64,000 nucleotides of DNA from Hirsutella rhossiliensis (taxonomy: Eukaryota > Ascomycota > Sordariomycetes > Hypocreales > Ophiocordycipitaceae). The stretch covers positions 1,421,711 through 1,485,710 of the forward strand of contig NW_025408684.1 in assembly GCF_020360975.1 (NCBI RefSeq), written 5' to 3'. The notes under the pieces were generated by a model that did no database searches, was not told where the DNA came from, and was given only the letters and a program-made list of their open reading frames with translations. Every line of letters starts with the position of its first letter. Within the stretch, counting starts at the first letter, position 1. This document shows, in pieces, positions 6,599 through 64,000 of the stretch. The translations under genes and the position numbers were made by a program.

Positions 6599-6679
6599 TG
6601 CCCCGAGCCAGAATCGAACTGACGATCTTGTCATATACCGAAGTACTAGTGACACGCTGTACCACTAAGCCATCGGGGC
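6599..6679 (-). tRNA. tRNA-Thr (anticodon AGT) with a 9-nt intron
   Basis: Read on the minus strand: acceptor stem GCCCCGA pairs with TCGGGGC; D-arm GCT..AGC; anticodon stem TGTCA/TGACA is perfectly paired; T-arm GTCAG-TTCGATT-CTGGC; discriminator A. The anticodon loop is 16 nt, that is 7 nt plus a 9-nt intron located one base 3' of the anticodon (6635-6643), the canonical position for nuclear tRNA introns. The anticodon AGT (6645-6647) decodes Thr ACU/ACC after inosine modification. CCA is not encoded, as expected for a eukaryote. Confidence 0.92.
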
Positions 6680-8021: not shown

Positions 8022-8453
8022 TCAAGTGCACACCTTGAGGTAGCGCGTCAAAGAGACGGGTGCACACGTAATATTGGTGTCTAGAATAATCTGACGGGCT
8101 GATGTGAAAGGGTCCCTCACGATGCATCGGAGAACCGCTCTTTTATCCCTTTCCGAAAGAATTGGCGGATGACCAGAGCGGGAACGGTCAGCTGCACTAA
8201 TCTGAGATGCGTATCGCGACGTGATGCCATGCACACTTCCAGCCGAAATGCCTTCTTGGTCGGCAATGACACGCGCCGATGTGCCCGAACTGTACAGGAC
8301 TGCAGTTCTTGTGCGTTTGTGAGGCGAGTGCTGATGTCGCGGCGCCATTGCGGGCATAATTGAGCAAGCTGTGGCACAATTTGTAGATTGGCTCTGTAGT
8401 CGACGCCGTCTGTGGCCCGCGTTTACCGCACCTCCAAGAGCGGGCTGACTCAC
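8022..8453 (-). mobile_element. Tc1/mariner-type transposase remnant (N-terminal part)
   Basis: The minus-strand frame contains ...VIADQEGISAGSVHGITSRY..., then SGHPPILSERDKRAVLRCIV, PFTSARQIILD and a VSLTRYLK motif, matching the paired helix-turn-helix DNA-binding region of Tc1-like (impala-type) fungal transposases. The frame stops at 8022, before any DDE catalytic residues, so only about the first 110-140 residues survive. No terminal inverted repeats were found. It lies between the acetyltransferase and the DUF167 gene, both minus strand, and looks like an old truncated insertion. Confidence 0.65.
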
Positions 8454-11576: not shown

Positions 11577-13898
11577 TCAATCGTCGTCATCATTGTCGTC
11601 TTCCTCCTCCTCCTCGGCATTCTCCAACCACTCCACCAACACCCTACATTTATCCCTCAGTGCAGCCATGCCCTCGCCCTCGACGGCCCTCGCATCATCC
11701 CACCAGCCGAGAATGCCGTCCTCCTCGAGGATGTCGAGCGCGTAGAGCTGCTGCAACAGAGCCGCGAGCAGAGTCCCCGCGCGGGCGGGCTCGACGCCCC
11801 TGGCGGGGTGTTGGTGCATCAGGGCGCGCTGGAGAGCGAGGACAAAGTCGACTTGTTCGGGCTCGCCGTCGCCACCGACGCCGACCTCGTCGACGAACTT
11901 GGCGGCGCCGGGGCGGGCCGTGAGCGCGCGCTCGGCGGCCTTTGCGGGCTCGAGGGGCCCGCCGTGCTCGGGGGTGAGGAGCTCGGCGGCGCGGCGGGCA
12001 AAGGCCGTGGCGACGGCGCGGCGCATCATCGAGTCGGACGCGTCGTTGGCGAGGCGCAGGCCCATGAACTCGAGCTTGGCTGAGTCAAAGTCGCCCGAGT
12101 CGGCGCGCAGGGCGTCGATGAGCCCGTGGACGGCGTCCTGGTGGAACGACTGCTTGCCTGCCGAGTCGTCCGAGGCAAACGACGAGAGGCGCGAGCGCGA
12201 CGACACGCCGGCGTCGGCGGAGAGGGAGGCTGCGTCGTCGCCGTCGTCGTCGGTGGTCAGCCCGGCCGACGCCAGCGTGGAAATGGACGACGTCGAGAGA
12301 TTGAGGTCGGCAAGGGAGTAGAGGAGAGATTTCTGGAGGCGCGCCGGGTCGTGCTCGTCCAGGTCGTCGTCTTCGGGGTCGGTGAAGGCGGCGGCGTTGG
12401 TGTCGGGGCCCAGGAGACTCGTGTCCTTGGAGATGGACTCGTTCGTGGGGGACACCGTCGACAGCACGACGCTCTTGTCCAGGGCGACGCCCTCGCCGAT
12501 TCGAACCCGGGTCGAGACAAGCGTCCCCGCCGGCAACAAGCAGCGGGCCCCGACCGTCACCGAGTCGGCCAGGATAGAGTGCGATATCCTGGTTCCGTCC
12601 TCGATCGTGGTGTTGTCCCAGATGTAGGAACGCTCTACAACTACATTGGTGCCGACCCTGCAGCCCCTGCCAATCACGCTGTTGGAGATGCTGGACGCCG
12701 CGCCCACCGTGGTATCTCTTCCAATGACCGAGTTTGTCAACCGGGCATCGGGCGCGTGGCCGGCACTGGTCTCCATGACCAGGCCGTTGGCGTGTCGGTG
12801 GTAGGACTGATCGGGCACGACGTTGTTCTCGGGGATGAAGGGGAACGTCCACCGATCGAGGACGTCGCGGCTGATGGCGTCGTACATTTGGAGATTGCTG
12901 GCCCGGGCGGCATATCCGCCGTCGACAATATCGGCGTAAATCATCTTTCCGTTGAGTTCCCAGTCCTTAAGCACGCCGTGCAGAAAGTTTCGCCGCGGGA
13001 GCTCGTAGTCGAAGCTTTCTGACCAGAGGGCCAGGACCTCGGGCGTGCAAATGTCCACCTGGGCATCGATGAGGTCGGACCGCACCTCGAACTCGGTCGA
13101 GAGCTCGTCCGCGATGGCGGGATCCAGGGCGACGCGGCGGTTGCTCTGCAGGGGGCTCATCTCGTCATAGTGAAGGACCCGTTGGGTGCGAGCGTCGACG
13201 ACGAAGACGGGGGTGATGCCATTGGTCTTTGTGCGATGTTGATGCGGACCGCCACTCCGCAGGACCATGGTCATGATGTTGGCGGCATTCTCCTCTCTTC
13301 GCTTGCGATGCGCCGCCAGGGCTCCGCCGAGCATCATGTTGGAGACGAGATCCCCATGTACCAGGAGAAAGTCGCCGTCGACGAGAGATCGTTTGTCCAT
13401 GTCGCGAAGCACATCGCCCATCGACCGCGCATCGGATACCCGGACGAACTGCAGGACGGAAAAGGGACAGGAGCGTGACGACGTCGACCACCGGGAGTGG
13501 CTGATGTAGTCCTCAACCTGGTCCGTGTGTGCGCCGCAGTAGATGTAGACCTCGTTGACGCCATTCATGGCGAGAAATTCGAGCGTGTACTCGATGAGAG
13601 GCGTATTGGCGAGGGGGAGGAGACACTGTCGTTGTCAGTACTGCGACTTGTCTGACGGCAGCAGGCTTGCGGCGGAAGGGGGAGGCTCACTCGTGGCTTC
13701 TCGACCGTGAACGGCTTGAATCTGTCTTGAAACGAGTCGGCGAGGACCTGTGGCGAGTCGTGAGCTTGCAGAAGCGCACTGCGGGCGAGGAAGACTCACA
13801 ACAGCCTGGAGGACATCTTCGGTTTTGCTCTCGGCGCCCGACTTGGCGGGCTTTTTGGCCTTGGACGAGCTCGCGCTGTTCTTTCCCTTGTGCGACAT
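11577..13898 (-). CDS. GCD6: Translation initiation factor eIF2B, epsilon subunit
   Basis: Exons on the minus strand: 13898..13800, 13747..13691, 13625..11577; 734 residues (yeast Gcd6 is 712). The spliced N-terminus reads VLADSFQDRFKPFTVEKPR then CLLPLANTPLIEYTLEFLAM, the nucleotidyltransferase-like domain start that is diagnostic of eIF2B-epsilon. A long run of hexapeptide (left-handed beta-helix) repeats follows (NSVIGRDTTVGA.., SYIWDNTTIEDGTRI, HSILADSVTVGA). The C-terminal W2/HEAT domain ends in an extremely acidic tail of Glu and Asp, matching the acidic patch that binds eIF2-beta and eIF5 partners. It is the catalytic guanine-nucleotide exchange subunit for eIF2 in the cytosol. Introns cluster at the 5' end, as usual in fungal genes. 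Confidence 0.92.
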
Positions 13899-27076: not shown

Positions 27077-29977
27077 TCACAATGCCTTGACCGACTGGAA
27101 AAAGGGATTGGCCAGCAAGTCGGTGTCTGCGGCAACGAGCTCCTTGAGCTTGGCCACCTGCTCGCCGGGGGACAAGTCACCGGCGCCGGCGACCTGGTCC
27201 TTCCAGCGGACGAGCAGCTGCTTGAGCATGGCGCTGCCCTGCTCGACGTCGTCCTTTGTGTAGGCGGCCTGGGCCTGGTCCTCGTGCTTGGTGGTAAAGT
27301 CCTCGAGCTCGTCGGCCTTGCGCTTGGCCATGCGCACCACCTTGTCCGGGAAGCGCACCAGCTCGGCCACGTGGATGCCGAAGCTCTGGTCGCAGATGCC
27401 CGGCTCCACCTTGTACAGCAGCGTCACCTCGCGCTTGCTGCCCGAGGGGCCATCGGCGTCGGCACCGGTGCCGCCAATGTGCGCCGTGACGTGGAGGTTG
27501 CGCACCTGCGGGTGGCGGTCGGCGAGGGCCGTCAGCTCGTGGAAGTGGGTGGCGAACATGGCGAAGCAGCCAATCTGCTCGACAATGTGCTCCGAGATGG
27601 CCCAGGCCAGGCCGAAGCCGTCGTAGGTCGAGGTGCCGCGCCCCAGCTCGTCGATTATGATGAGCGACTCGCTCGTGGCCGACTTGAGGATGTTTGCCGT
27701 CTCGAGCATCTCGGCCATGAAGGTCGAGACCCCCTTGAGCTGCGAGTCGCTGGCGCCAACGCGCGCGAGGATCGAGTCGAAGATGGTCAGCTCCGCCTCG
27801 GCGCAGGGCACAAAGCACCCAACCTGCGCCATGAGGGCGATGACGCCGGCCTGGCGGATAAAGGTCGACTTGCCGCCCATGTTGGGCCCCGTGATGATGA
27901 GGAACGACGACGAGGCGCGCTCGAGCTCCACGTCATTTGTGATGAACTGCACGTCGTCCTGCAGCTCCATGCACGGGTGCCGCGCCCCGACGAGCCTCGT
28001 CTGGCCCTCGCCGCGGGCGTGCATCGTGGGGCGGACGTAGGCCTCGGGCGCGTGCAGCGAGGCGTGGGCCAGCGAGGCGACGACGTCGAGGTGCGCGAGT
28101 ACGCCGGCCAGCCTCTCGAGCACGGGGCAGTACGAGGCCGCGACGTTGACCACCTCGTTAACGAGGCTGCTCTGGGTGCGGTTGTAATTTTGCGACAGCT
28201 GGTCATGCTCGCGGCGGTAGGCCTGCATCTTCTTGGTCGTAAAGTAGACGCCGTTCTTCTGCGTCGAGCACTCCTGGTAGCGCGCCTTGTTGCGGATGCA
28301 GCCGGCCTCCTGTCGCGTCAGGCGCATGCATACGCCGTGCACCTTGTGGCCCGTCTCGAGGAAGATCTTCTTGTCGGGTTCCTGGTCCAGGTCCCGCGCC
28401 GCGTCCGTAAACTCTTGCCGGATGTCGCTGTCGAGCTTATCGAGCTTCCGGCGGATGATGCGCAGGCTCTGGTCGTACTCGGGCTTGATGATGTACTCGT
28501 GGCGGTCGAGGGCGGCGAGGTCGACCGTCTGCTCCACCATGTCCTGGAAGCGGCCCAGGCTGTCGGAGAGGTCGCGCAGCTTGGCCGTGTAGGCCTCGTC
28601 GAGCGGATCGCGGTAGGCCTCGTCCATGACGCCCTCAAAGGTGCCGATGAAGCCGGGGAGGCGGATGACGACCTGGTAGGCCCGCACCACGTCCTCGAGG
28701 TTGGCCTTGCCGCGCTGGAGGCGCTTGGCGAGGCGGTAGAGATCGGGGATGGAGCGCAGGTGCTCCTCTTGCATCGTCTGGCGAAGCTCGGTGTCGCAGA
28801 AGAAGGCCTCGACGAGCTGCTGCCGCTTCTCAATCTCGGGCTTGCTCATCAGGGGCTGCTTGAGCCACTGGGCCAGCAGGCGGCTGCCGGCCGGTGTCTT
28901 GCAGTGGTTGAGGACGCCGTAGAGACTCATGGTCTTGGAGCCGTCGCGCGGGCCGGGCATGAGGTTGAGGGCCTTGAGGGCGGCGGCGTCCAGCTTCATG
29001 TACTGGGCCAGGTCGTGCTGGTAGAGCTGGTACTGGCCAAAGTTGGACGGGTCCTGCAAGACGCCGAGGTACTTGATGAGGGACGAGGCAGAGCCCATGG
29101 CGAGCTTCAAGTCTGTCTGCGGGAGCAAGGTGGCAGCCCTGTCGTCCTTGAGCAGACGGGCCAGGTCCTGCTCGATGTCACGGGTGGCATAGTCGGCGGC
29201 AGGGCGCTCGGCGATGGCGACGCCGCAGTTGTCGAGGATTTGCCGCAGCTTGGCCAGTTCTGGGTCCTTGTCCTTGTCGCCCTTATCGAGCTGGACGAGG
29301 CACTCGCGGACGCCGAGCTGGATGAGGAGAGACTCGAAGTTGGAGTAAAGATCGTTGTCGAGGAACTCGCTCACGCCGAGTTCGCGAACGCTGGCATCGG
29401 CAAAGCAGACGCCGACGCAGCGGGCCTCGGAGGCCTTGGCCGAGATCTTGACCGCCATGATCATGGGGGCCGAATCAATCTGGCCGCCGAGGTCGTCCTC
29501 GACGTCCTGCAGGTTTCCAGGAGACGCTTGCTTGGTGCACTTCCAGTTCATGCGCCCGGAGGGGCTCTCCCATATCTCGATGCGCTTGCCGAGCTTGAAG
29601 AGGGCTTCGCGGAGGAACTGGCGGAAGACAGTGATGGTCATTGAGACGGACAAGAGGCCGGTGTGGTCGCTGCGGCCAAGCTGCCTAACCACAGAGGTTG
29701 TCTTGTAGACCTGTCGCGAAGGCAGGGTTAGCTAGGAAAAAGAACTTTCCTTTGCTTCAGGCATACCGTCTTGGCGATGAAGGTGGCATCTTGCGCGTGG
29801 GCTGTGTACCAGTCCCCTCTGTCGAAGATGCGGATCGTGTCGTCGCCGACGGCGGGGAGAGACTTGAAGAAGCGAATGAAGCCGCCCTCGTCATCGAGCT
29901 GTGCGCCTCGTCAGCCATGGATATGACGAGGTTGTTCAGGGGCAGTTTCTCACCTTGAGCTCGGGTCTGGACGCCAT
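27077..29977 (-). CDS. MSH2: DNA mismatch repair protein MSH2
   Basis: Exons 29977..29954, 29898..29767, 29710..27077; 929 residues. The first exon is only eight codons. The N-terminal MutS I domain reads FIRFFKSLP..TIRIFDRGDWYTAHAQDA, followed by connector, lever and clamp domains. The ATPase has Walker A TGPNMGGKST (about residue 660), FVPCAEAELTIFD, the ABC-like signature GVSTFMAEM, Walker B LIIIDELGRGTSTYDG and the family His in ATHFHEL. Partners MSH3 and MSH6 are not in the window. Role: recognition of mismatches and small loops in the nucleus. The length and all catalytic motifs are intact. Confidence 0.96.
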
Positions 29978-34899: not shown

Positions 34900-37800
34900 A
34901 TGCAGTTACCGCGACTGTGCGCCCTTGTCTGCTCGGCACTGGTGCTGGTGTTGGCGGTGTCGGCTCCCGACGCCGTCGCCGCCGGGAGAGAAGAGCAGCA
35001 GCATCTGCGGGACGAGGCGTTTCGGCGGGCAAGACGCCGCCATGTTGGGCGAGGGCCGAGATCTACGCAGAACAAGTTCATCATCGAGGTGCAGCCGGTA
35101 AGACAAAATTCGCACATGACCCCTAGAATACCTACCTAAAACCACCCGGCACTGGGTTCCCGATAAAGCGCGTGCCGTGTGTTTGGTCTGACACACAAAA
35201 ACTCTCTCTACAGGGCTTTCGCACTTCCAACCTGATTCGGCAACCTGAGACCGCGGGGGCCCCCCGAGTCTCAAGCGCCTACCAGGTATTCAACTGCAGC
35301 GGCCTCTTCAGGGGCTTCGTCGTCGAGGCGCAGGCCGAGAGCGTCGAGGAACTGCGCGGAATCGACGGCGTCATCAACGCCTGGCCGGTCCGGACGGTGC
35401 GGCTGCCGCCGACGGTGCGGCACCCGACGGTCAAGAGCGCTCCCCGCGGAGCCGAGGCTGCAAATGCCTCGGTCCATCGGTGGACCGGCGTGGACAAGCT
35501 TCACGCCGCGGGCATGACCGGCAAGGGGGTCAAGGTTGCCATTGTCGACTCGGGCGTCGACTACACGCACAAGGCGGTATGCGTAGAATCACACGTGTTT
35601 TCTGGCTGGGGGGCCGGCTCAACGGCTAACGGCATAAAGCTCGGGGGGTGCTTCGGACCTGGATGCAGGGTCATGGGAGGCTACGACTTTGTGGGCGGTA
35701 AATGTGCGCACTCCTCCCCCTGGTCTGCCGGGAGCCAACAACGGAGGCAAAAGGGTGTTGAGGGCTAACTTGGGCCTTGTTGGTTTCCACCAGGGGAACA
35801 CCAACCGGAACCTGACGGCAATCCCGTGGATTACGACGGGCACGGCACGCACGTGGCGGGTATCGTTGGCGGAAACGCCGATGGGTAGGCTGCTGCTTCT
35901 CCGCATGCTAGACGCCAAAGGCTGGTGCGGTTCTGACTGCATTCCATTCGCACAGGTTCTTGGGTGTGGCGCCGGAAGCCCAGCTCTTGGCCTACAAGGT
36001 CTTCGACGACGTATGGACCCGGCCCATGCTTCGCGCTCTGGATGGCTGAGGCTGATAACCACGTAGGCCGGTAATGGGACTACCGAAGATGTCATCATCC
36101 AGTCGTTCTGCGACGCTTATAGTGCCGGGGTATCCATCACTCGCCCGCCTTGGTGGCCCGTCTTGCTTGATTGAGCCCATCACTGACCTTTGGCTCAGGC
36201 CGACATCATCACCTCGAGTATTGGCATGGGAAGCGGCTTCAGCGATGGTCCCTGGTCCCTGGTGGCCTCTCGCATCGTAGGCAGAGGAGTTGTCGTGACA
36301 ATCTCGGCGGGCAACGACGGCAACAACGGCCCCTTTTCCTCGGGAAATGGCTGTAACGGCCGCGGGGTCCTGTCCGTGGCAGCCATCAACATCACCGAGG
36401 ATGCCAAGAGCAAGCGAGTTCGGTTCACTCCGGCCCGTTTTACCTCGTGGGGGCCGACAAACGAGCTGTGGCTGAAGCCGGACATCGGGGCCCCCGGGGT
36501 CAAAATCATGAGCACGGCCTTGAAACAGGGCTTCAAAGCCCTGGATGGCACGTCCATGGCTGCGCCGTATATCGCGGGCGTGGCCGCGCTCTTCATCGGC
36601 CAGCGCGGCGGGCGCGAGATTCACGGTTCCGAGTTTGCGCGCCGCTTGGCAAAACGCATCATTGGCAGCGGGCAGAGCGTCAGCTGGTCTGCAAACACGG
36701 CTCTGGACAACCAGACGTCCTTGGAGAACGCAACGGCCCCCCCTGTCCAGGTAGGAACCGGCCTGGTGGACGCGGGAAAGGTCCTTGGCTACACCACAGA
36801 GCTCATGTTCGAGCCCATTGCCCTGCGAGACACGAGGCGTTTCCAGCCCAAGTGGGAAGTAGGTATCGTCAACAAGGGCAAGGACAAGGTCAAGTACCGC
36901 TTCGAGGTGGAGTCACAATCCGCCGTCGAGATCTACAATGGCCATGATGGCATCAGAAAATTGCCCAAACTCAGGCCCTCGTGCTTGGACCCAGTCATTT
37001 CCCTCCCGAAGCCTGAGGTCGTGAGGGCCGGGCAGATGAAGTCTATCGTGTAGGTCTGAACTGTTGTCAGGCTGCCCAAGGTCGCCACTGTTAACTCGCA
37101 TTCTATTAGTTTAAATTTTTCGCTTCCATTGAAAGCCAACGACTCCATGCTTCCAGTATACGGCGGCAAGATCTGGATCAAGGGCGACAACGGGGAGGAG
37201 CTCTGCATCCCATACGCAGGTGACGGAGCATAGAGTGGCTCGATCATGCCGTACTCGCTGCTGACAAGACGACCAGGGGCTGCATACGACACGGGAAAGG
37301 CGTTCGCCACCATGTTTCGAGACGTCAACCGCACCGCCAACGACAACGGCACTTGGACGTAGGTAGACCTTGAGACGCCGCACTACCGCCAGACGCTGAT
37401 GCAGGCGTGACGGTAGTTGGACCATGGACACGCAGAAGTACATGGAATTGAAGGCAGTCCTCGCGTATCCATGCACCAATCTGCGGTGGGATGTCAGTCG
37501 CTCCGACCCCAGAGAGGGCGCGAGCCCAGATGCCTGCTTTTGAACCGGCCATTGACCAAGTTTCCAGATCTTCGCGAGCAACTGGACAGAGCGAGACTGG
37601 GTGTACCCGCCACAGGCGAACAAAGGCGGCTACGTCGGTTCCGTCGCCGCGGTTCCAGTCTTGAAGGAGTCGGCGGGAGACGACAACAACAACAAGAGCA
37701 AAGCGACGGGCTTCCCCTTCAACAGGGTACCCCGCGGCAAGATGTCGTACCGCTGGTTTGGCGAGCTGACCAACCGAACGCAGATTGCACCGGGGAATTA

Positions 37801-41360: not shown

Positions 41361-43587
41361 TCAAGTCATCGTCGTTAGGCCCGCATGGGCCCTCTCGACT
41401 GTCCGCCAGCCCATGCCGGGCAGCGCCCGCAGCTGCTCCAGGCTCTCGATGCTGCCACCGCCGCTCCCGTCGTCGGCCTCGAGCGCCGCCAGTTCCAGAT
41501 AGTCGATCAGGTCCTGCGCTCTCTTGGCGCCGAAGCCCGCCAGGCCCCGGATCCGCGCCATGTCTCGCGAGTTGACCACATCCAGGAGCCGTCTCGTGCG
41601 TGGCGATGCTGGAGCCGAGGGGGAATGTTTGTCCGCAATGGCCGGCAGGGACGTCGGCCTCGGCTTTGACTTGGGCTTGGCTCTGCTGCGAGGCTTCCAC
41701 TCGCCGCCGTCGCTCCCCCTTTCCTCCTCCTCCCCCTCCTCCCACTCTTCGTCGTCATGGACTGTAGCCCTGGCGCGTCTTCCTTCCTTTGCCGACTGGA
41801 GTGGGTCTTCAGCCGAGGCGCTCAAGGCAGACCGCAGTCGCTCAATGTTGCTCAGCAGCTTGGCCTGCCCGGGGAAATACGGCAACGCCATCTCGTAGGC
41901 CCTGAGCGCGGCGGCGTCGTCGCCCCTTTGCTTGCATTGTCGGGCCGCCAACAGGTAGCGGAGCCCATCGGACCTGGTGTCGCCACGCCAGTCGTCGCCT
42001 TCCACGCGCCGCTCGAGCGCCTCGAGCCGCTTCTGTACCGCCTCGCTCAAGTCGGCCTGCTGAGGGCCAGCCTGCGACGACGACGCGGGGGCGGCCGCCG
42101 TTCTCGCTGCCAGCATCTCGCTGACCTTCTTCTCCACCATGGCCTCAATATCGGCCGCCGACATGGTGATCTGCTCCTCTGCCGCCGGCCGGGCGGCCTT
42201 GGCCTGCCTCAAAGCCTGCTCGTGTTCTAGGGGGCGCTTGTGCGTGCTCGGGCGCGGCACGAGACTGGCGGCGCCGACGGCGGAACGTGCCGCCGCCGCC
42301 ACCGACGACGAAGTCTTGGCCTTGTCCGTGTAGACGCTAAAGGCCTTGACCGGCTTGTTGGCCTCGGCGGCCTTGGCGGCCATGTTGCCGTTGTGGACGT
42401 TGTGCGCGTTGGCCAGCGGCCGCAACGGCTGACGGGCGATGCCGCCCGGTGCCACGCCCGGGTTCGCCCTAGGAACCTGCTTGAAGACGACCTCGTTCTC
42501 AATCTCGCGGACCTCGATGCGCTTGGCGCGGGAGCTGACGTTGAGGCTGCTCAGCGTGTCGAGGTGGTAGCTGCGCAGCGGGGCCAGGTTGAGAATCATG
42601 ACGGTGATGCCCTTGTTCTGGCCGAGCGACAGGATGCGCGTCATCTTGGACTCGCGGTAGGGGATGCGCTTGTCGCCGCGCGAGATGGCGTCGATGCACT
42701 GGCTGAGGACAAAGAGGCTCTTGTTGATGGCCGCCGACTCGACCAGGCGCTCCTTGCCGTTGTCGGTGCGCCGGTTGTCTTCGGAGCCGGCGAGGTCGAT
42801 GGCCGATGCGGTGCTCTCGAGGACGGCGCCGCCCGTCGTCTGCGTCAGCTTGACGCGCAGGATGGCGTGGCTGCGGCTGCTGTGGGCGTTGAGCTTGGTG
42901 GCGGCCGTGACGCGGTTCGCGTTGGCCTCGATGTACAGCTTCTCAAAGTCTCGCAGGTCCTCGCACGCCCGCTCCGAGAGGCCGGCCACGACGGTCCTGC
43001 CGTTGGCCTCGGCGCGCAGAGGCAGGCCGGCCGGGGTGCGCTTCTCGGGGGGCTCGAGCAGGTCGAAGACCTTGTCGTTGTAGATTTCGTAGTACGACAG
43101 GCTCACCCGCGCCGTCGTCTGGCCGGCCGTGTCCTTTGCGATCTTGCGGCCGCGGCGGAAGATGCCGCTGAGCAGGCGCGGGATGACGCCGCGCTCCGCG
43201 AGCTTGAGGCCGCCTCGCATCGTGTGCGTCTTGCCCGTGCCCGTGACGCCGTAGGCGAATATCGTGACATCGTAGCCCTGGAAGAGGGACTTGAGGTGCG
43301 GTTGTACTGGGGGTTTTCATGGCCATGTTAGCTCGTGCTGGTCCTCGTGTGTGCCTGCATGGTGACGGGCCCGCACCTTCGCAAGTAAACAAGGTCTCCT
43401 GGGACGTGGGCTGGTCGTAGACGCCGTTGAAGGCAAAGGAAAACTCCTCGGCCTCGTTCTTGGGATTCGGAATCTTGACAATCGTGTCAGGCTTGCCCGG
43501 CTCTACCCTGTCGGATCGCACAATCATGTCCTTGTCGAGCTCCTTCTCCAGCAGCGGACGTATCCTCGCGACGACCCGGATGGACAT
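41361..43587 (-). CDS. Kinesin-10 (Kid/KIF22-like) motor with C-terminal helix-hairpin-helix
   Basis: Two exons on the minus strand, 43587..43377 and 43306..41361; 718 residues. The intron (GTGCGG..CCAG) falls just before the motor P-loop. Motor: VRVVARIRPLL-type start (SIRVVARIRPLLEKE), P-loop GVTGTGKTHTM (about 90-100), switch I NAHSSRSHAI, switch II DLAGSED, then YRESKMTRIL and the neck. After a linker there is a TPR-like stretch (YLLAARQCKQRGDDAAALRAYEMALPYF) and two C-terminal helix-hairpin-helix motifs (RIRGLAGFGAKRAQDLIDYL; LRALPGMGWRTVERAH) as in chromokinesin Kid, which bind DNA. Role inferred: chromosome-arm movement on the spindle. Confidence 0.88.
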
Positions 43588-47887: not shown

Positions 47888-50516
47888 CTATGCGTTACGT
47901 GGCATGCACTACAGTTAAAGCTATATTAGCATTCTTCCAGCAATTGAACACGCTTTCAGTCAGGGGCAAAAACTTACACGCTGAACCCATCAGCTATATC
48001 AGCAATGCTCTAGAATAGCAATAACACCGTATCTATCACGAACTCGGAGGGATAAAACTTACCCCCTAGAGTGGCCAACTCTATTAGCCTATCTCTAGCA
48101 ATCAGACGTCCTATCAGCCACGGGGTAGGAGCTTACAGCCTAGAGTTGCCGGCTGTATTAGCATGTTTGCTAGCAACAAGGCGACCCATTATAGCGCAAA
48201 AACGTACGATCTAGAGTTGCCAACCATATTAGCATTCTAGCAGTAACTAAACATCCGATTAGTTATGCCGAGGGAACTTACAAGCTAGAGTCGCCAGCAA
48301 TATCAGCATGTGGGCAGTATGCTGAATGATGACTTACATACTAAAACCGCCCACTATTAGCATTCGGACAGCAAATAGACAGACTTGTCTCTTAGTAATG
48401 GTAACTTACAACCTATCGTCGCCGGATACATCAGAATTTTGCCGGCTCACAACACCGTGTCAGCAACAGGCGAGAAACTTACATACTAGAAATTCCAACT
48501 ATATTAGCTAGCCGCTAGCAACCAATCGGAGCTATCACGGGGTAGAAACTTACAGCCTGCAGTCGCTAGCTGTATCAGCATTCTTCTAACTGTCAGACGC
48601 CTTGTTAATTTTAAGGTATGAACTTACTCCCTAAAATAGTTAGCTGAGTTAGTGTTCTGCCAGTCATCAAGACGCCCTATAACTTAAGGGGTAGGAACTT
48701 ACTCCCTGGTCGCTTGCTATATTAGCATGCTGCTGGCTATCAGAGGACACGAATGAAGGAGGTAGATTTTACAATCTTTAGTTGTCAGCTACACTAATAT
48801 TCTGCTAGCAGAAAAATCATTGCACGAGGTGGGCGCTTACTGGCTTAAGTTGCAACCATTGTTAGCATGTCGCCAGCAACTAGACACTCTATATTTATCC
48901 TAAGGGTGAAACTTACTTTCTATGGTCGCCAGCTATATCAGCATGTTGCAAGTAATTAGACTGCAGGTGCCTTATTATCGAATAGAACTTACACACTAAT
49001 TTCACAAGTATATTAGTATTCTGCTAACAATTCGAGCGCCCTAGCAGAGCGGATCAACGACTTACTCTCTGAAATAGTCCGCTACATCAGCATGCCACCA
49101 GCAACCTGATAATCTATTAGTTGCAGGCAGGAACTTACGGACTAGATTCACGAGCTATGTTAGTCATTTCTGCCAGCAGTCAGATGCTCTGCCTATCACG
49201 GGAATCTACTTACTCCCTAGAGTTCCCAGTAGTATTAGCATATCGTCAGCAGTCAAGCCTGTCAAGGTCGGACTTACGGGCTAGAATCGCCATCTGTATT
49301 AGTTGGCAGCCAACGGTGTATCCCTTAGGTTATATTCAGAAACTTACGCACTAAAGTCCCGGTTTAATTAGTATGCCGTAAGATATAGCGCCCTAAAGAG
49401 CAATCTCAAGGTACTTACACACTAAGATATACTAACGTTAGTATTTTATCACGGGTAAGACAGTATAGTAAGTGCGGGGCAGGAACTTACGGACTAGAGT
49501 TGCTAGATATATCAGTATGGCACTAGAGATAAGACACCTTGGCACCCTGGGTTAGAACTAACTCTCTATCCGCCAGCTGCATCAGTTTCTGCAAAAATCC
49601 AACCGCCAGTTAGTCGTTTAGTAGGCACTTACAGACTAAAGTTATAGGCCGTATTAGTCACACGCTATCAATGATTTAACCTATCTCCTATCTGATAAGC
49701 TACGGAGTAAGAACATACGGACTAAGCTCGCAAGTTGTGTTAGCATGATGCAAGCTATCTTATATCCTGTCAATCTCAGGGTAAAACATACATACTAGTG
49801 TCGCCGTCTATATTAGTATGCCGCTGGGATGAGATGCCCTAGTCGTATTGGGACAGGAACTTACGCACTACGTTTACAACTAGATTAGCCACGTTTATGA
49901 ATTCAGACGCTCTACTAAATCAAGATTCGATGACTTACTTGCTAATGTCGCCGGCTATGTTAGCGCCTGCTACCCTTTAGACAGCCTACCAAGATAGAGA
50001 GAAGCTTACCCCCTATAGTCGCCAGATACGTCAGTATTAATAACAGTAGTCCGTCGCCGGGCAAGAACTTACTCCCTAAAGTCACACGCTATATCAGCAT
50101 GTGGCTAGCAATCAGCGGACATGTTGGTCACGGGGAGAGAACATACATTCTAAATCGCCGGCTTTATTAGCATTTAGCTTAGTCAGACGTTTTATTAATA
50201 TTCGAGATAGGAGCTTACTTGCTATAGTCCATTTCTATATCAGTATGTCGCTAGCAATAGACGCTCTGTCGGTCACGGGGGTAAGAACATACAAGCTAGA
50301 GTTATTAGCTCTGTTAGCATTCCTCGACCAGACTCCCCGTTGACTATATAGAGGTACTTACACACTAAATGATTCCCGTTTTATTAGTAACGAGAGAGCT
50401 TAATGATGGCTCTTGCTGCACAAATCTTGGTCCTCTAGATATTTGCTTACTTGTTTCGTAGGGCTCGCCACTGCTACTCCGGCTAGGACAGCCAAAAGGG
50501 CAACTATAAACTTCAT
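47888..50516 (-). CDS. Micro-exon gene: secreted six-cysteine (knottin-like) peptide with 34 consecutive 3-nt exons
   Basis: Exon 1 is 50516..50451 (22 codons): Met-Lys, a hydrophobic core and an A-V-A/S-P cleavage site, a textbook signal peptide, ending in phase 0 at a GTAAGC donor. Thirty-four exons of exactly 3 nt follow; their lower coordinates are 50362, 50293, 50219, 50147, 50073, 50010, 49939, 49865, 49792, 49719, 49633, 49563, 49491, 49419, 49348, 49278, 49214, 49139, 49066, 48993, 48917, 48841, 48773, 48703, 48628, 48554, 48483, 48410, 48338, 48282, 48208, 48137, 48063, 47978. The last exon is 47908..47888 (six codons plus TAG). Total 62 residues, 35 introns of 53-86 nt, all phase 0. 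No micro-exon is a stop codon. Cys is encoded by the exons at 50362, 49865, 49419, 49348, 48993 and the last exon, giving C-x6-C-x5-C-C-x4-C-x14-C, close to the inhibitor-cystine-knot pattern. Donors: GTAAGT 23, GTAAGC 5, GTATGT 4, GTTAGT, GTACGT and GTAAAA once each. Acceptors: TAG 29, CAG 4, AAG 2. Branch sites CTAAT, CTGAT or CTAAC lie about 15-20 nt before each AG. The role (effector, antimicrobial or other secreted peptide) is not known. Confidence 0.85.
47909..50450 (-). repeat. Tandem array of 35 related introns, period about 72 bp
   Basis: Read on the minus strand, most units share, in order, a start like GTAAGTTCCTACCCCG, a middle like GTCTGATTGCTAGC, a branch region like GCATGCTAATATAGC and an end like TGGCGACTCTAG. 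The 3 nt between units vary freely (24 different codons or so), while the intron parts are related throughout; first and last introns are the least similar. Identity between units looks around 50-75%, below what RIP normally needs, and the array keeps its CpA dinucleotides, unlike the neighbouring transposons. This is best explained by one founder intron having multiplied (introner-like), or by duplication of an intron-plus-codon module. Confidence 0.88.
50451..50516 (-). other. First exon of the micro-exon gene: signal-peptide exon
   Basis: 22 codons beginning ATG at 50516 with A at position -3. The encoded segment has one Lys after Met, about 15 small or aliphatic residues (Ile, Val, Ala, Leu, Gly), then Ala-Ser-Pro-Thr-Lys-Gln. 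A signal peptidase site after the second Ala of A-V-A is expected. It ends exactly at a codon boundary, the same phase as every other intron of the gene. Confidence 0.85.
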
Positions 50517-59353: not shown

Positions 59354-62300
59354 GCTACCTCGTTATCCGTTAAGATAGGAGGTATAGTATTAGGAGTTTT
59401 AATAAATAAGCTATTATTTATTATATAAAATAGCCGATTTAGATATAAAGCTTCTTTATTAGCCTCCTTAAGGGCAATAAATTTAGCTTCGTGGATTAAT
59501 GGGCTATAGATTTTTGCTTCTAGTAGGCCTAACTTATAATATTTTTATAAATAGAAATAGTATCCGGAAACGGATTTTCTGTTTATAAGGTTAGACGCCT
59601 AGCTAGCGTCGAATAACCTTTTATAAAATTATAAGTATAAGGGATATTATAATAATAAATTATCCTAGGTTAGGATATTTATTTAAATATTTCTAGATAG
59701 TATTTAACGCTTTAAAATATATATTATCTAGTTTAAAAGTAAATCTAGCGTGGAAATAACAGTATATAAAATGTCTAGCACTTATTGTAGCTAGATATAA
59801 TAGAGCCCTTATTTCCCTTTAGTAAATAAGGATTTCTTTTTCAAGCGTTATAGTAGCCTTTTGGCTTTACTCTACTATAGTAAGCGTATTAAAGTCCCTA
59901 AGTCTTCTTTATTATATTCTCGTATTTTATTACAGTATATTTTCCTAGGATATAAATATCTCCTTTCTCTCTAGTTTATAAATTATATATATTCTAAGAA
60001 GTCTTTTAGTTCGCCTAGAGGCTAAACCTTTATATAATCTACTACCTTTTTAAGCAGACTATTTATTATACTCTCTATTAGGCCCTATATTAGGAGGTTA
60101 TCTCGTAGATTACTATGCATTTTATATGCGTATTTATAAATATACCTTCTAAATACATAGGAAGGGCCGAAAATCTATCTTAGCTAACATAGAGCTAAGA
60201 TAGTTATACTAAAGCTTTAGGCTTTATTTAAGGCCGTATAATACTTTCTTTAATTTTACTACTAGCCTTTTCTTTTTATATAGCTCTAGAAACTGCGAAT
60301 AGCTAATATTATACTTATACTAGTTTTTATTAAACTAGTCTTTAAGTATTAGCTCTTTATAGCCTATAGGGATTTTTATATAAATATCTATATCTATTTC
60401 GGTATATACGAAGGCATTTTTTATATTATATTATAGTAGGTATAATTATTAGAAATAATTTATTATAGTAATTCTAATAGATTCGAATTCTTACTATCGT
60501 AAAAAGGTTTCTAAATAATCTAGGCTATAGACCTAATTAAATCCTTATACTACATAGCAGGCTTTATATTTAATAATATTATTATTATTATCCTGCTTTA
60601 TTTATAGACCTAACGGCGCCTAGGGCCTCCTATCAGCAGGAAGAGGCTTTAATTCCTAGGTATTTTAGTTTAAGAGCTCTTCTATTTCTAGAAACATAGC
60701 TCTTTTCTATTCTATAGCTTCTAAGCTATTTATAGCCTATTTAAATGTTTTAGGCTCTATAGGTCCTTATTTTCTAGTAAAGATAGAATAATCTCTTTAC
60801 TTTTACTATTTAATATAGTGTTTATTTCAGGGTATACGATATAGTCTTTATAAAATCCGTTTAGCTTCTTAGGTATATTAATGGTTTTAGATCCTTATTT
60901 AATCCCTTTTCTAAAAGGATTATTTCCCTTTTTATAAAAGGTTTATCTTTCCTTACTATAGGAGGGTTATCTTCCTTCTCTCATGGGAGGGTTATCTTCC
61001 TTCTCTAAAGAGGTTATCTTCCTTCTCTATAAGAGGGTTATTTTCCTCTTTTTCAAAGAGAATTGCCTTCTTTATATATAGGTTCCCTTTATAAATAATT
61101 ATCCGGACCTTATTTATAGAAGGTAAGGTATTAAAGTCAAATTCAAGAGTCTTCTTCCTTTTAATTTTCTATAAATTTATTTTCTAGGATAATAATATCT
61201 CTAGAAATTATTACCTTTCTTTTCGAAAAGTTATATATTTTATAAGCATTTTTAGTATAGCCTATAATAATACCCTATAAGCTCTTATCTCTAGCTTATC
61301 TAAGGGTCTTTATTTTTATAATAAATAGTACTTCTAAAAGTCTTAATTTTCTCTAAGTCTTTTAAGGCTAGAGATTTATTTTCTTTTCTCTATAGGAGTT
61401 TAGAAACTATTCGTAAGTAAGGGGTCTATTATATAAATAGGCTGCTATTGAATAGCTTCTCCTATAGATATTTAGGCAGTTTTGCCGTAAATAAAATAGC
61501 TCGGACTTATTTAAAATAGTCCTATTAATCCTCTCTATTACTCCGTTTAATTCGAGTCCTAGGAGGCTAGTATAATATTAATTCCTTTCTTAAGCAGTAG
61601 GGTTTTATTTATATAGAATTCTTTTACGTTATCGAAAAGACTTCCTTTATAGTAATATTATCCAGTTATTTTTAACTAAGGCTTTATATTCTAAGATTTA
61701 TTTAGGGCTTCTACCTTAGATTTTATTAGAGATATTTCTAAATATCTTATCCCATATCTAAAAGGATATAAAGGAGGTGTATTTGTATAAGTAGGGGTCT
61801 TTATAGGTCCTAAATAATAATAGTAACTCTATTAAGGTAATTATATACCTTATTAGATGAGTTTATCCCTCTTATTAGTTGCCTTTGCTTTAATATAAGC
61901 CTCGCATTCTTTAATTTTTATAATATCCTTCTTAGGGATAGTTATATCTTTATTATATCTTTTAAAGGTTTCTAGTAATGCTTTAAGCGTTATATATCCT
62001 GCCTTAAATGCTATAAATAAAAGTTAAGGTCCTTTATATTATTCCTTATATTATTATTATATAGGAATGTCTTCTAAGAAAGATTAAAGAGAAGATATAA
62101 AGGTTATCTTACTATTTTCCTTTAGATATAATATTAGCCTAGTTATCTAGCAGGAAAATTTCCTTGCTATTAATAAAGGCATAAGTATTTTTAAAAATAC
62201 GATTTAGCTTATAATATTTACACTAATTTAGGTATAAAAGGCAGTTTCTTATAAGATAAATAGCTTTTATTTTTGGAAATCTAAAAGAAGATCTCCGTAG

Positions 62301-63527
62301 CCTTTAATAATTATATAGGATTACGCTCACTAATTATGCGTAGAATGGTTCGAAAATTAATAGAGATTTCTTTTCCGATACTTATACCTAGTAGTACCGG
62401 TATTATATATAAAATTATAGAAATTTACTATTTTCTAAGGTTTTATAAGGATTTCCTTCTCTTTACCTTATATATAAGGTCTTTAATTCGAGAGGAATTT
62501 AAAGGTCCTATTACCTATTATTAAATGGCTTTTTAAGAGATATTCGAAGAGATATATACCTCTACTTCTTCTTCAGACTTTTATAGCCTCTAGGGGTAAG
62601 GAGGAATAGAAAATCGATTTCGGTTCTTCGTTTATTTAATTATCGATTTCTATTTTTTCTGCTTCTGATATATATAGAGAGAGGTTTTCGTCTTCTTATC
62701 GACGTAAAGAGTCTAATCGATAAGTTTTCCTTCTATAAAAGGTTTTCTAGGCCTCTTAGAGGTATTCCTTTATTTAAATTTTTAAATTTTTAGAAAGCGC
62801 ACAGGGCCTTTTCAAAGTAAGATAGTAATCTTTAACTAGATGCCTTTCTTCTTATAGTAAGTGCATTATTTCTTTCCTTCCTCTTTTTCTGGGCCTTAGT
62901 AAAGAAAGCCTGTTAGGAGGATTTTCTAGAGACTTAGTCCTCTTAAATTCGTCTATAAGACTACTAGAGAGAGACTCTAGATTAAAAGCTTCGAGTTATT
63001 TGAAGAGCTTCGTTATATTAGTTATATAGCTAGAAAACAGGCCGAAGGCTGTTTAAAATCTAAGCTATAATAACTTCTTCGAATTATAATATTCCGTGGT
63101 TTTAGCTCTTCGAATACCTCTTTTGCCTTATTTAGGTAGCCTTACTAGGGATTGAAATCCCTACTAAAGTGTTAAAAGCTCCTTTATAAGTAGGTAATTT
63201 AAGGTAAAGGAAATAGGTTATATAGGTTTTTAGCCTATCCACTCTTTAGCATTATTATATACTTTATTTAGGTTAAAGGACTATCTTTAATGAAAAAAAA
63301 TCAAAGTAAGTGTTCTTCTATTTTCGAGGTAATTTTCTTGCTATATAGTAGTATTCTCTCTAACTAAAGAGCATATTAGATAGCCTAGAGGTATAGTTAG
63401 AACTACCCTTAAGTTTAGTAAATTCGAACTTATCCCTGAGCCTATTTTAGATTCGAGGTCGTATTAGAATTTCGAAGATTTTTCGAAGTTATTACCCGAC
63501 TTATAAAGAGAAGCTAGGCTTATAACC
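59354..63527 (-). mobile_element. Copia retrotransposon, gag-pol body, RIP-degraded
   Basis: On the minus strand 59560-59354 reads EAKFIALKEANKEALYLNRL then a Pro/Asn linker and DNEVA, continuing the RNase H domain found at 52430. Upstream the sequence (to about 62.9 kb) is strongly TpA-rich with stops in every frame, consistent with reverse transcriptase, integrase and gag in that order. A run with the ligand spacing of a gag zinc knuckle (Cys-x2-x-x-x-Gly) occurs near 62820-62870. Together with 51134-52434 it forms one element split by the gypsy insertion. Confidence 0.8.
60960..61080 (+). repeat. Short tandem repeat GAGGGTTATCTTCCTTCTCT inside the copia body
   Basis: Four imperfect copies of a roughly 23-bp unit (AGGAGGGTTATCTTCCTTCTC and variants) between 60959 and 61045, with related AGAGGGTTATTTTCC after it. 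It lies in the pol/linker part of the decayed element and is probably local duplication. Confidence 0.6.
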
Positions 63528-64000
63528 TATAAGAAGGTATAAGTAATAGCGTAGAATCGGTGTCGATAACGTAAGCGGAAAGATCAGTTAAAGGAGTATA
63601 GGGGGATTTTGTTTGAATTTATAACAGTATATAAGGGCCGAATAATATATTAAGAATATAGCGTTGTAAAAGATACTTATAAACTTACTTATTCTATCTA
63701 CTACTCTAAATCCTTCGTCTTACATAGACTATTGCTCGCCTACTAGTAGACTAATTAGTTAGCTTTCTAGTATATTCTATAGTGCTTAAAAGCTCTATCT
63801 ATAGTATATCTTCCGAACTTAGTAGGTGGTCTAATTATAGCGTAATAGTTAACGTAGACTATAGGTTCTAGTATAAGTAGTAGATTTAACTAGAATGTTC
63901 TATGCCTACCTATTCTCGTATCGCGGATATCTTCGAACCGCTAGGCCAAAATAGGCAATAGAATTATCCGTTCTACTCGTAATTAACTTATGCATTTTAT
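63528..64000 (-). mobile_element. Copia-type LTR (right copy), truncated by the window edge
   Basis: Begins TATAAGAAGG and aligns to 51134-51620 along its whole length with single-base deletions and RIP-type transitions (the left copy begins TGTAAGAAGG). It is the 5' LTR of the minus-strand copia element; the outer end lies beyond 64000. Confidence 0.88.

Follow-up and report, generated by a model that had tools for sequence, protein, structure and literature searches.

The DNA analysed here is a window of 64,000 nucleotides from Hirsutella rhossiliensis (C18:1421711-1485710 of an 82-Mb assembly), a fungus that parasitises nematodes according to the title of a published paper (PMC7800308). 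Pfam matches mark an eIF2B-epsilon-like gene (window 11577-13568, minus strand), a MutS family gene (27077-29692, minus), a subtilase gene (36190-37053, plus), and a kinesin gene (41361-43220, minus). A tRNA gene lies at 6599-6679 on the minus strand (Rfam, 53 bits) and is missed by ARAGORN with bacterial settings. Towards the contig end at position 64000, G+C falls to about 0.28-0.30 (60001-64000), and only two telomere-like hexamers occur within the last 3 kb.

A further gene on the minus strand runs from a start at 50516 to a stop at 47888; its 35 introns enclose 34 exons, every one of them exactly 3 nt long. Exon 1 (50451-50516) holds 22 codons from ATG to AAACAA and encodes MKFIVALLAVLAGVAVASPTKQ, which is signal-peptide-like by eye. 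Intron 1 (50365-50450; 86 nt, GTAAGC...TAG, phase 0) leads into the array (47978-50364), where the 34 exons of 3 nt are separated by introns 2 to 34. In order, the first 17 array codons are TGT CTT CAA AAT GGA GGG CAA TGC TAT TCC TCT AGA TCC TGT TGC CCC GGA, followed, as codons 18 to 34, by TCC AGA TGT AAA CCA ATT GGA GGA GCT TAT GTT TAT CTT ATC GCT GGG CGT. Intron 35 (47909-47977; 69 nt, GTAAGT...TAG) precedes the last exon (47888-47908), which reads TGC ATG CCA CGT AAC GCA TAG, that is, CMPRNA and a stop.

Joined, the exons give MKFIVALLAVLAGVAVASPTKQ + CLQNGGQCYSSRSCCPGSRCKPIGGAYVYLIAGR (the single codons) + CMPRNA. The frame is open from the ATG through every exon to the stop, and 34 of the 62 codons sit in 3-nt exons, all in phase 0. 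Five of the six cysteines come from the array, and the sixth opens the last exon. A preliminary description of this DNA had claimed 34 consecutive single-codon exons that continue a signal-peptide exon without a stop, end in frame after six codons of the last exon, and yield six cysteines. The coordinates bear out the exon series to the base (34 of 34 are 3 nt), and the sequence agrees on the frame and the cysteines. Its statement that all 35 introns carry good signals holds in part. The introns are 53 to 86 nt long (n = 35), the majority combine a GTAAGT-like donor, a CTRAY-like branch site, and a TAG acceptor, and all 35 are found at relaxed thresholds, but four are weak: intron 13 (49494-49562) has the donor GTTAGT, introns 22 (48844-48916) and 23 (48776-48840) have the acceptor AAG, and intron 24 (48706-48772) has the weakest donor of the array, GTAAAA. 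The architecture is real at the level of sequence; its splicing we infer from the evidence below.

Chained introns and chance expectation

In our chain search, candidate introns receive a score from their donor, branch site, and acceptor and are then joined into chains, with exons of 1 to 40 nt allowed between them. With strict thresholds and exon length left free, the window chain scored 394, and 28 of its 33 inner exons were 3 nt; when the site thresholds were relaxed and only 3-nt exons allowed, it scored 395, and all 34 window codons were recovered. When exon length was fixed in turn at each value from 1 to 12 nt, a length of 3 nt gave 35 introns in the window, and no other length gave more than 3. 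Other window segments (74) and dinucleotide shuffles (200) served as controls; the six top-scoring segments chained 1 intron, and the five top-scoring shuffles chained 2 or 3.

The junction motif was also counted across the genome. TCTAG-N3-GTAAGT occurs at 304 sites, a share of which belong to a dispersed TCTAGATCGTAAGT repeat outside the arrays, against 15 sites for the backwards pattern; the corresponding counts are 14 and 14 with a spacer of two nucleotides and 32 and 7 with a spacer of four. The TCTAGATCGTAAGT sequence is found as single copies across many contigs (for example, C1:286054, C2:1140723, and C5:315757) and is probably a repeat unrelated to the arrays.

Sister arrays in the genome

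The window gene is one member of a family in its genome and not unique. At least eight further arrays, of 9 to 73 single-codon exons, lie on seven other contigs. Given with the fraction of inner exons that were 3 nt in the strict, free-length search, they are those on C6 (L015, C6:3950684-3956388; 73 codons, 44/45), C13 (L019, C13:2393188-2396946; 43 codons, 33/42), C10 (L018, C10:2420085-2423655; 41 codons, 31/40), C5 (L027, C5:2401404-2403873; 32 codons, 10/11), C3 (L009, C3:2696840-2698189; 18 codons, 14/14), and C1 (L028, C1:1579879-1580631; 9 codons, 6/7), together with two on C8, here called C8:677k (L010, C8:677140-679813; 32 codons, 32/32) and C8:1045k (L023, C8:1045137-1048484; 42 codons in the stretch read, 34/36). 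Some arrays of near-identical units also chain at other exon lengths with a lower score; the C6 array, for instance, scores 275 at 7 nt versus 926 at 3 nt.

Models from start to stop were obtained for the window, C6, C10, C13, C5, and C1. The complete models open with a signal-peptide-like exon and close with a stop, the last exon beginning with TAA in C6, C10, and C13 and with TGA in C5. The phase-0 first donor of C6 is a weak GTATCC, and the chain search favoured an out-of-phase site 10 bases further. At C8:677k the array lies behind a long exon and forms a C-terminal tail. Six relatives of that exon are present in public data, with 42 to 54% identity (best E 4e-92); they are longer proteins with a different cysteine-rich tail of their own. 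The last acceptor of C8:677k is ambiguous because a nearby GTAG, directly before TAACTC, matches the gene ends of C6 and C10/C13, and an extra upstream codon chained via a 235-nt intron was excluded from all counts.

Other members are less complete. The C3 array at 2697k is without a clean first donor and a clean 3' end. The C8:1045k array is interrupted and without clean ends, with transposase-like DNA (by eye) inside or adjoining it (C8:1041k-1052k; L023, L037), and C8:1052k likely holds its signal exon. The 3' part of this C8:1041k-1052k array gene resembles C3:2985k. Weak or remnant arrays are present at C3:1521k, C3:2985k, C4:804k, C13:2434k, and C13:1673k, and the chain search gave no array at C2:3621k, C7:3706k, C7:3762k, C4:1385k, or C4:1398k.

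A shared 3' element, GGTCGTTGTATGGAGTTCTCC...GGAGTTTAAGCTCGGCCGACC, whose ends could pair, is present at 25 places in the genome and lies downstream of L010, L013, L014, L015, L018, L019, L024-L028, and L030-L034; the same genome-wide search (25 matches) gave no copy at the window. Six of the 25 copies accompany the C6, C8:677k, C10, and C13 arrays and the weak arrays C3:1521k and C3:2985k. Twelve further copies, in 11 regions, accompany the full arrays at C5:2401k and C1:1579k, remnants only at C13:2434k and C13:1673k, and three intronless genes at C13:2253k, C13:2254k, and C10:2048k. Among the 18 copies inspected, those at C4:4656k, C5:295k, C5:6335k, C17:317k, and C1:5653k have no array. 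The element was rejected as an array-specific mark because it also stands behind genes without arrays.

Intronless relatives and coding signals

Three paralogs of the C6 array gene lack introns altogether, and another, mostly fused, keeps three. The intronless copies are two tandem single-exon ORFs of 98 aa each at C13:2253k and C13:2254k (L026, C13:2253200-2258200) and a single-exon ORF of 117 aa at C10:2048k (L030, C10:2047950-2049500). They read like the C6 product, with the same pre-peptide and with NCCCV and CPSC-VLSNP-VCR-APP-CGAC in order. The C10 intronless product has 11 genomic matches, and three of these fall on first exons of arrays, namely those of C6, C10, and C13. The search with it also finds the mostly fused copy at C19:663k (L036, C19:662900-664200), where 101 fused codons lead to a first intron, then 11 fused codons to a second, and one single codon to a third, after which comes TAA; compared with their closest counterparts in the C6 array, the introns of this copy show 77 to 90% identity. 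A similar 3' part is found at C6:3594k (0.90 identity over 430 bases). For the window and C5 arrays, no intronless paralog was found in the genome.

The homology between intronless and array genes breaks at or near predicted splice sites. Between the C10 intronless gene and the C6 array gene, DNA homology runs through the upstream region and exon 1 as far as L015 base 2499, two bases short of the exon end (2501), and starts again at 8218, where the last exon begins. In the two C13 copies the first stretch stops at 2502 and the second starts further on, at 8242. These breakpoints at the predicted first donor and last acceptor, together with the intronless and partly fused paralogs of C6, constitute what we regard as the strongest support for splicing of the arrays. 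We rejected the separate proposal that the C10 intronless gene arose as a retrocopy elsewhere in the genome, on the ground that its homology extends, in two blocks, over about 680 bp upstream of the ATG.

The intronless mature parts also share a codon habit with the C6 array. C or T is the last base of 65/66, 65/66, and 77/85 codons in the mature parts versus 11/32, 11/32, and 10/32 before them, and of 66/73 in the C6 array; the habit is weaker in the window (22/34) and C5 (22/32). We read the bias of the intronless mature parts as a trace of the array, and hence this one lineage probably lost its introns wholesale by way of cDNA. In the reverse course, an intronless ancestor, a normal gene, would have been invaded by introns at each boundary between codons, and the paralogs would be silent on the splicing of a once-complete array. 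The direction has no outgroup to fix it, and the C19:663k gene with its three introns might be expected on such a course. We consider intron gain the less likely course nonetheless, given the array-like codon bias and the 74 insertions that it needs, each at a codon boundary and always in phase 0. Whichever way the introns went, the array codes only if it is spliced.

The codons themselves behave as coding sequence. No stop occurs in the 283 single-codon exons counted over eight arrays (C10 was omitted as a near-duplicate of C13, and L010 was entered with 32), where 6.9 are expected from base use by codon position and 9.6 from overall base use, and cysteine accounts for 49 of the 283. When 27 near-identical 73-bp units of C8:677k were compared, variability over the 73 columns was highest at codon positions 1 and 2 (1.95 and 1.74 bits) in an alignment where one row, shifted by a one-base deletion, adds noise; position 3, at 0.69 bits, ranks below eight intron columns and is not hypervariable.

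The products point the same way at one locus. The C5 product, MQLSIALVAVLVGLGMANPAINERRQ + ACTPIFQKCGRIPPCCKGLICKGVGSKTCRKP (32 single codons), matches PF07740 at 22.0 bits, above the cut-off of 21, whereas the window product reaches 16.8 bits and remains below it; among the seven array products scanned (L018 and L028 lie outside the scan), C5 alone exceeds a Pfam cut-off. The spacing C-x6-C-x5-CC-x4-C, which reaches to the fifth cysteine, is common to the window and C5 products, with a longer last loop in the window. Given the match of C5 to PF07740 and this common spacing, the window peptide may adopt a cystine-knot fold. A shared-word search found no relative of the window peptide among 5.8 billion proteins, and comparison with solved structures returned weak matches only, the best E values being 0.2 (window) and 0.013 (C5). 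A dibasic KR or RR before the mature part is the motif of Kex2 processing. By eye, exon 1 carries LEKR at its end or one codon earlier in C6, C10, C13, and C8:1052k, and ERRQ in C5; in the window it ends in TKQ, with no dibasic site.

These signals bear on a second alternative, in which each array is a tandem satellite of intron copies, a burst of introners that mimics a gene; target-site duplications or similar remnants would account for the 3-nt spacers, and the array would be spliced out whole or remain silent. The units are indeed related copies (mean pairwise intron identity of 0.58 to 0.92 by array), exon 1 of the window gene joined directly to the last exon stays in frame, and introners with target-site duplications of 3-9 bp are described (PMC9860276). 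Yet the absence of stops, the cystine-knot match of C5, and the intronless and partly fused paralogs, which hold the codons as one reading frame, make a satellite very improbable. Moreover, neighbouring single codons are no more alike than chance in any of the eight arrays, and an origin of the codons from 3-nt target-site duplications is therefore not supported. That the spacers are removed from DNA by programmed elimination is hardly credible: intronless copies do exist in DNA, but the spacers show the usual splice signals (donor, branch, and acceptor), their family members at C2 and C7 look like ordinary introns, and both forms occur in the assembly, at separate loci.

The reading that we favour is that the mature region of the window gene consists of 34 single codons and that the spliceosome very likely removes all 35 introns, giving a small, cysteine-rich peptide with a predicted secretory route. 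With a donor, a branch site, and an acceptor inside each intron of 53-86 nt, recognition would occur across the intron (intron definition), with exon size irrelevant. The preliminary description likewise argued from the size of the exons against exon definition and for intron definition, a reasonable conjecture. The product would be a pre-peptide, and this step and its knot fold, like the growth and loss of arrays, are drawn from related loci of the same genome.

Array change and known systems

The array introns on eight contigs form one sequence family. Pairs of introns from this family also occur in apparent coding sequence without an array, at C2:3621k (L012) and at C7:3706k and C7:3762k (L016, L017). 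The C2:3621k sequence and the two C7 sequences are related, and the C7 copies are 56 kb from each other and oppositely oriented. We take the array introns to be introner-like, and the arrays likely grew from a single family of intron copies akin to such elements. The window introns, with a mean identity of about 0.59, are far more diverged than those of C10 and C13, so the window array is likely old, its frame nonetheless intact.

Array change can be followed between C10 and C13, whose array copies are near-duplicates or two haplotypes (99.5% over 2.7 kb downstream). Introns 0-23 are identical except two (0.985 and 0.988), and the final ten are identical. Eight codon-plus-intron units in one copy replace ten in the other, and the last three codons of the replaced tract agree. 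Introns of this tract are 95 to 100% identical to another intron of C10 or C13, often beside other codons, and introns identical to the base adjoin different codons. The replacement and the reuse of introns suggest that whole units move, so that arrays would change by swapping them. Codon hypermutation was disfavoured, since all 33 of the 33 codons outside the replaced tract are unchanged and replacement of whole units reads better.

All introns are in phase 0, between codons, so the gain, loss, or putative skipping of a unit would preserve the frame. On the strength of the C10/C13 swap, the identical introns beside different codons, and the fused and partly fused paralogs, we advance tentatively that the arrays could act as a codon-shuffling system: recombination or gene conversion within near-identical phase-0 introns would add, drop, or swap residues with the frame kept safe, and finished versions would be frozen through cDNA as intronless genes. 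If transcripts bear out the arrays, they would offer a frame-safe route to single-residue change, and copies of the introner type would be seen to build a coding region and not merely interrupt one.

The preliminary description had proposed a gene of serial single-codon exons without precedent. The sister arrays, the stop-free codons, the C5 match, and the intronless and partly intronless paralogs support such a gene, and no other gene of this kind turned up among the papers listed in searches of openly licensed PubMed Central literature, a scope that preprint or subscription work could escape. We take it as a new gene architecture. Schistosome micro-exon genes and aphid bicycle genes have exons of several to tens of nt. 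They resemble the window gene in their many tiny in-phase exons, secreted products, and rapid change, and differ from it in that its inner exons are all 3 nt, with up to 73 consecutively at C6, and in that array introns are copies of one sequence family. With most of its coding sequence in tiny symmetric exons, the window gene is itself a micro-exon gene; we claim no descent from the schistosome genes.

Exons of 3 nt or 1 nt are spliced singly in Drosophila homothorax, troponin T, NCAM, and Arabidopsis APC11 (PMC7392893). These cases establish that an exon of at most 3 nt can be spliced; as described there, each is a lone exon in an ordinary gene, never one of a series. In Trichoderma virens, the transcription factor gene Xlr2 has one regulated microexon, and its authors state that functional microexons were previously undescribed in filamentous fungi (PMC11121469). 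Xlr2 thus parallels the window gene as a microexon gene of a filamentous fungus, with one such exon where the window gene has a series. Introners are related intron copies that multiply in a genome, ascomycetes included (PMC9860276, PMC4457414); the array introns are likewise one family with some members outside arrays, but described introners interrupt existing exons, whereas array introns are packed with one codon between them. Sordariomycetes offer another case of unusually packed introns in the stwintrons of Hypoxylaceae, which likewise have copies similar in sequence (PMC8469720, PMC9024468); as reported, an intron lies within an intron there, whereas here introns are consecutive with a codon between. 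The inhibitor cystine knot peptides of PF07740 (Toxin_12) share cysteine order and spacing with the window and C5 products, and C5 scores above the family cut-off; the window product differs in falling below it.

The window gene and its relatives push the exon down to one codon, up to 73 times in succession within one gene. Should transcripts confirm it, this would mean accurate serial splicing over dozens of joins with almost no exon, and a direct test of intron definition. Whole peptide families would then be missed by gene finders and read aligners.

One annotated protein of H. rhossiliensis overlaps the family. The first 90 residues of HRG_012392 are identical to one of the intronless copies; it then diverges, and its annotated tail reads into sequence that lies 3' in the present genome.
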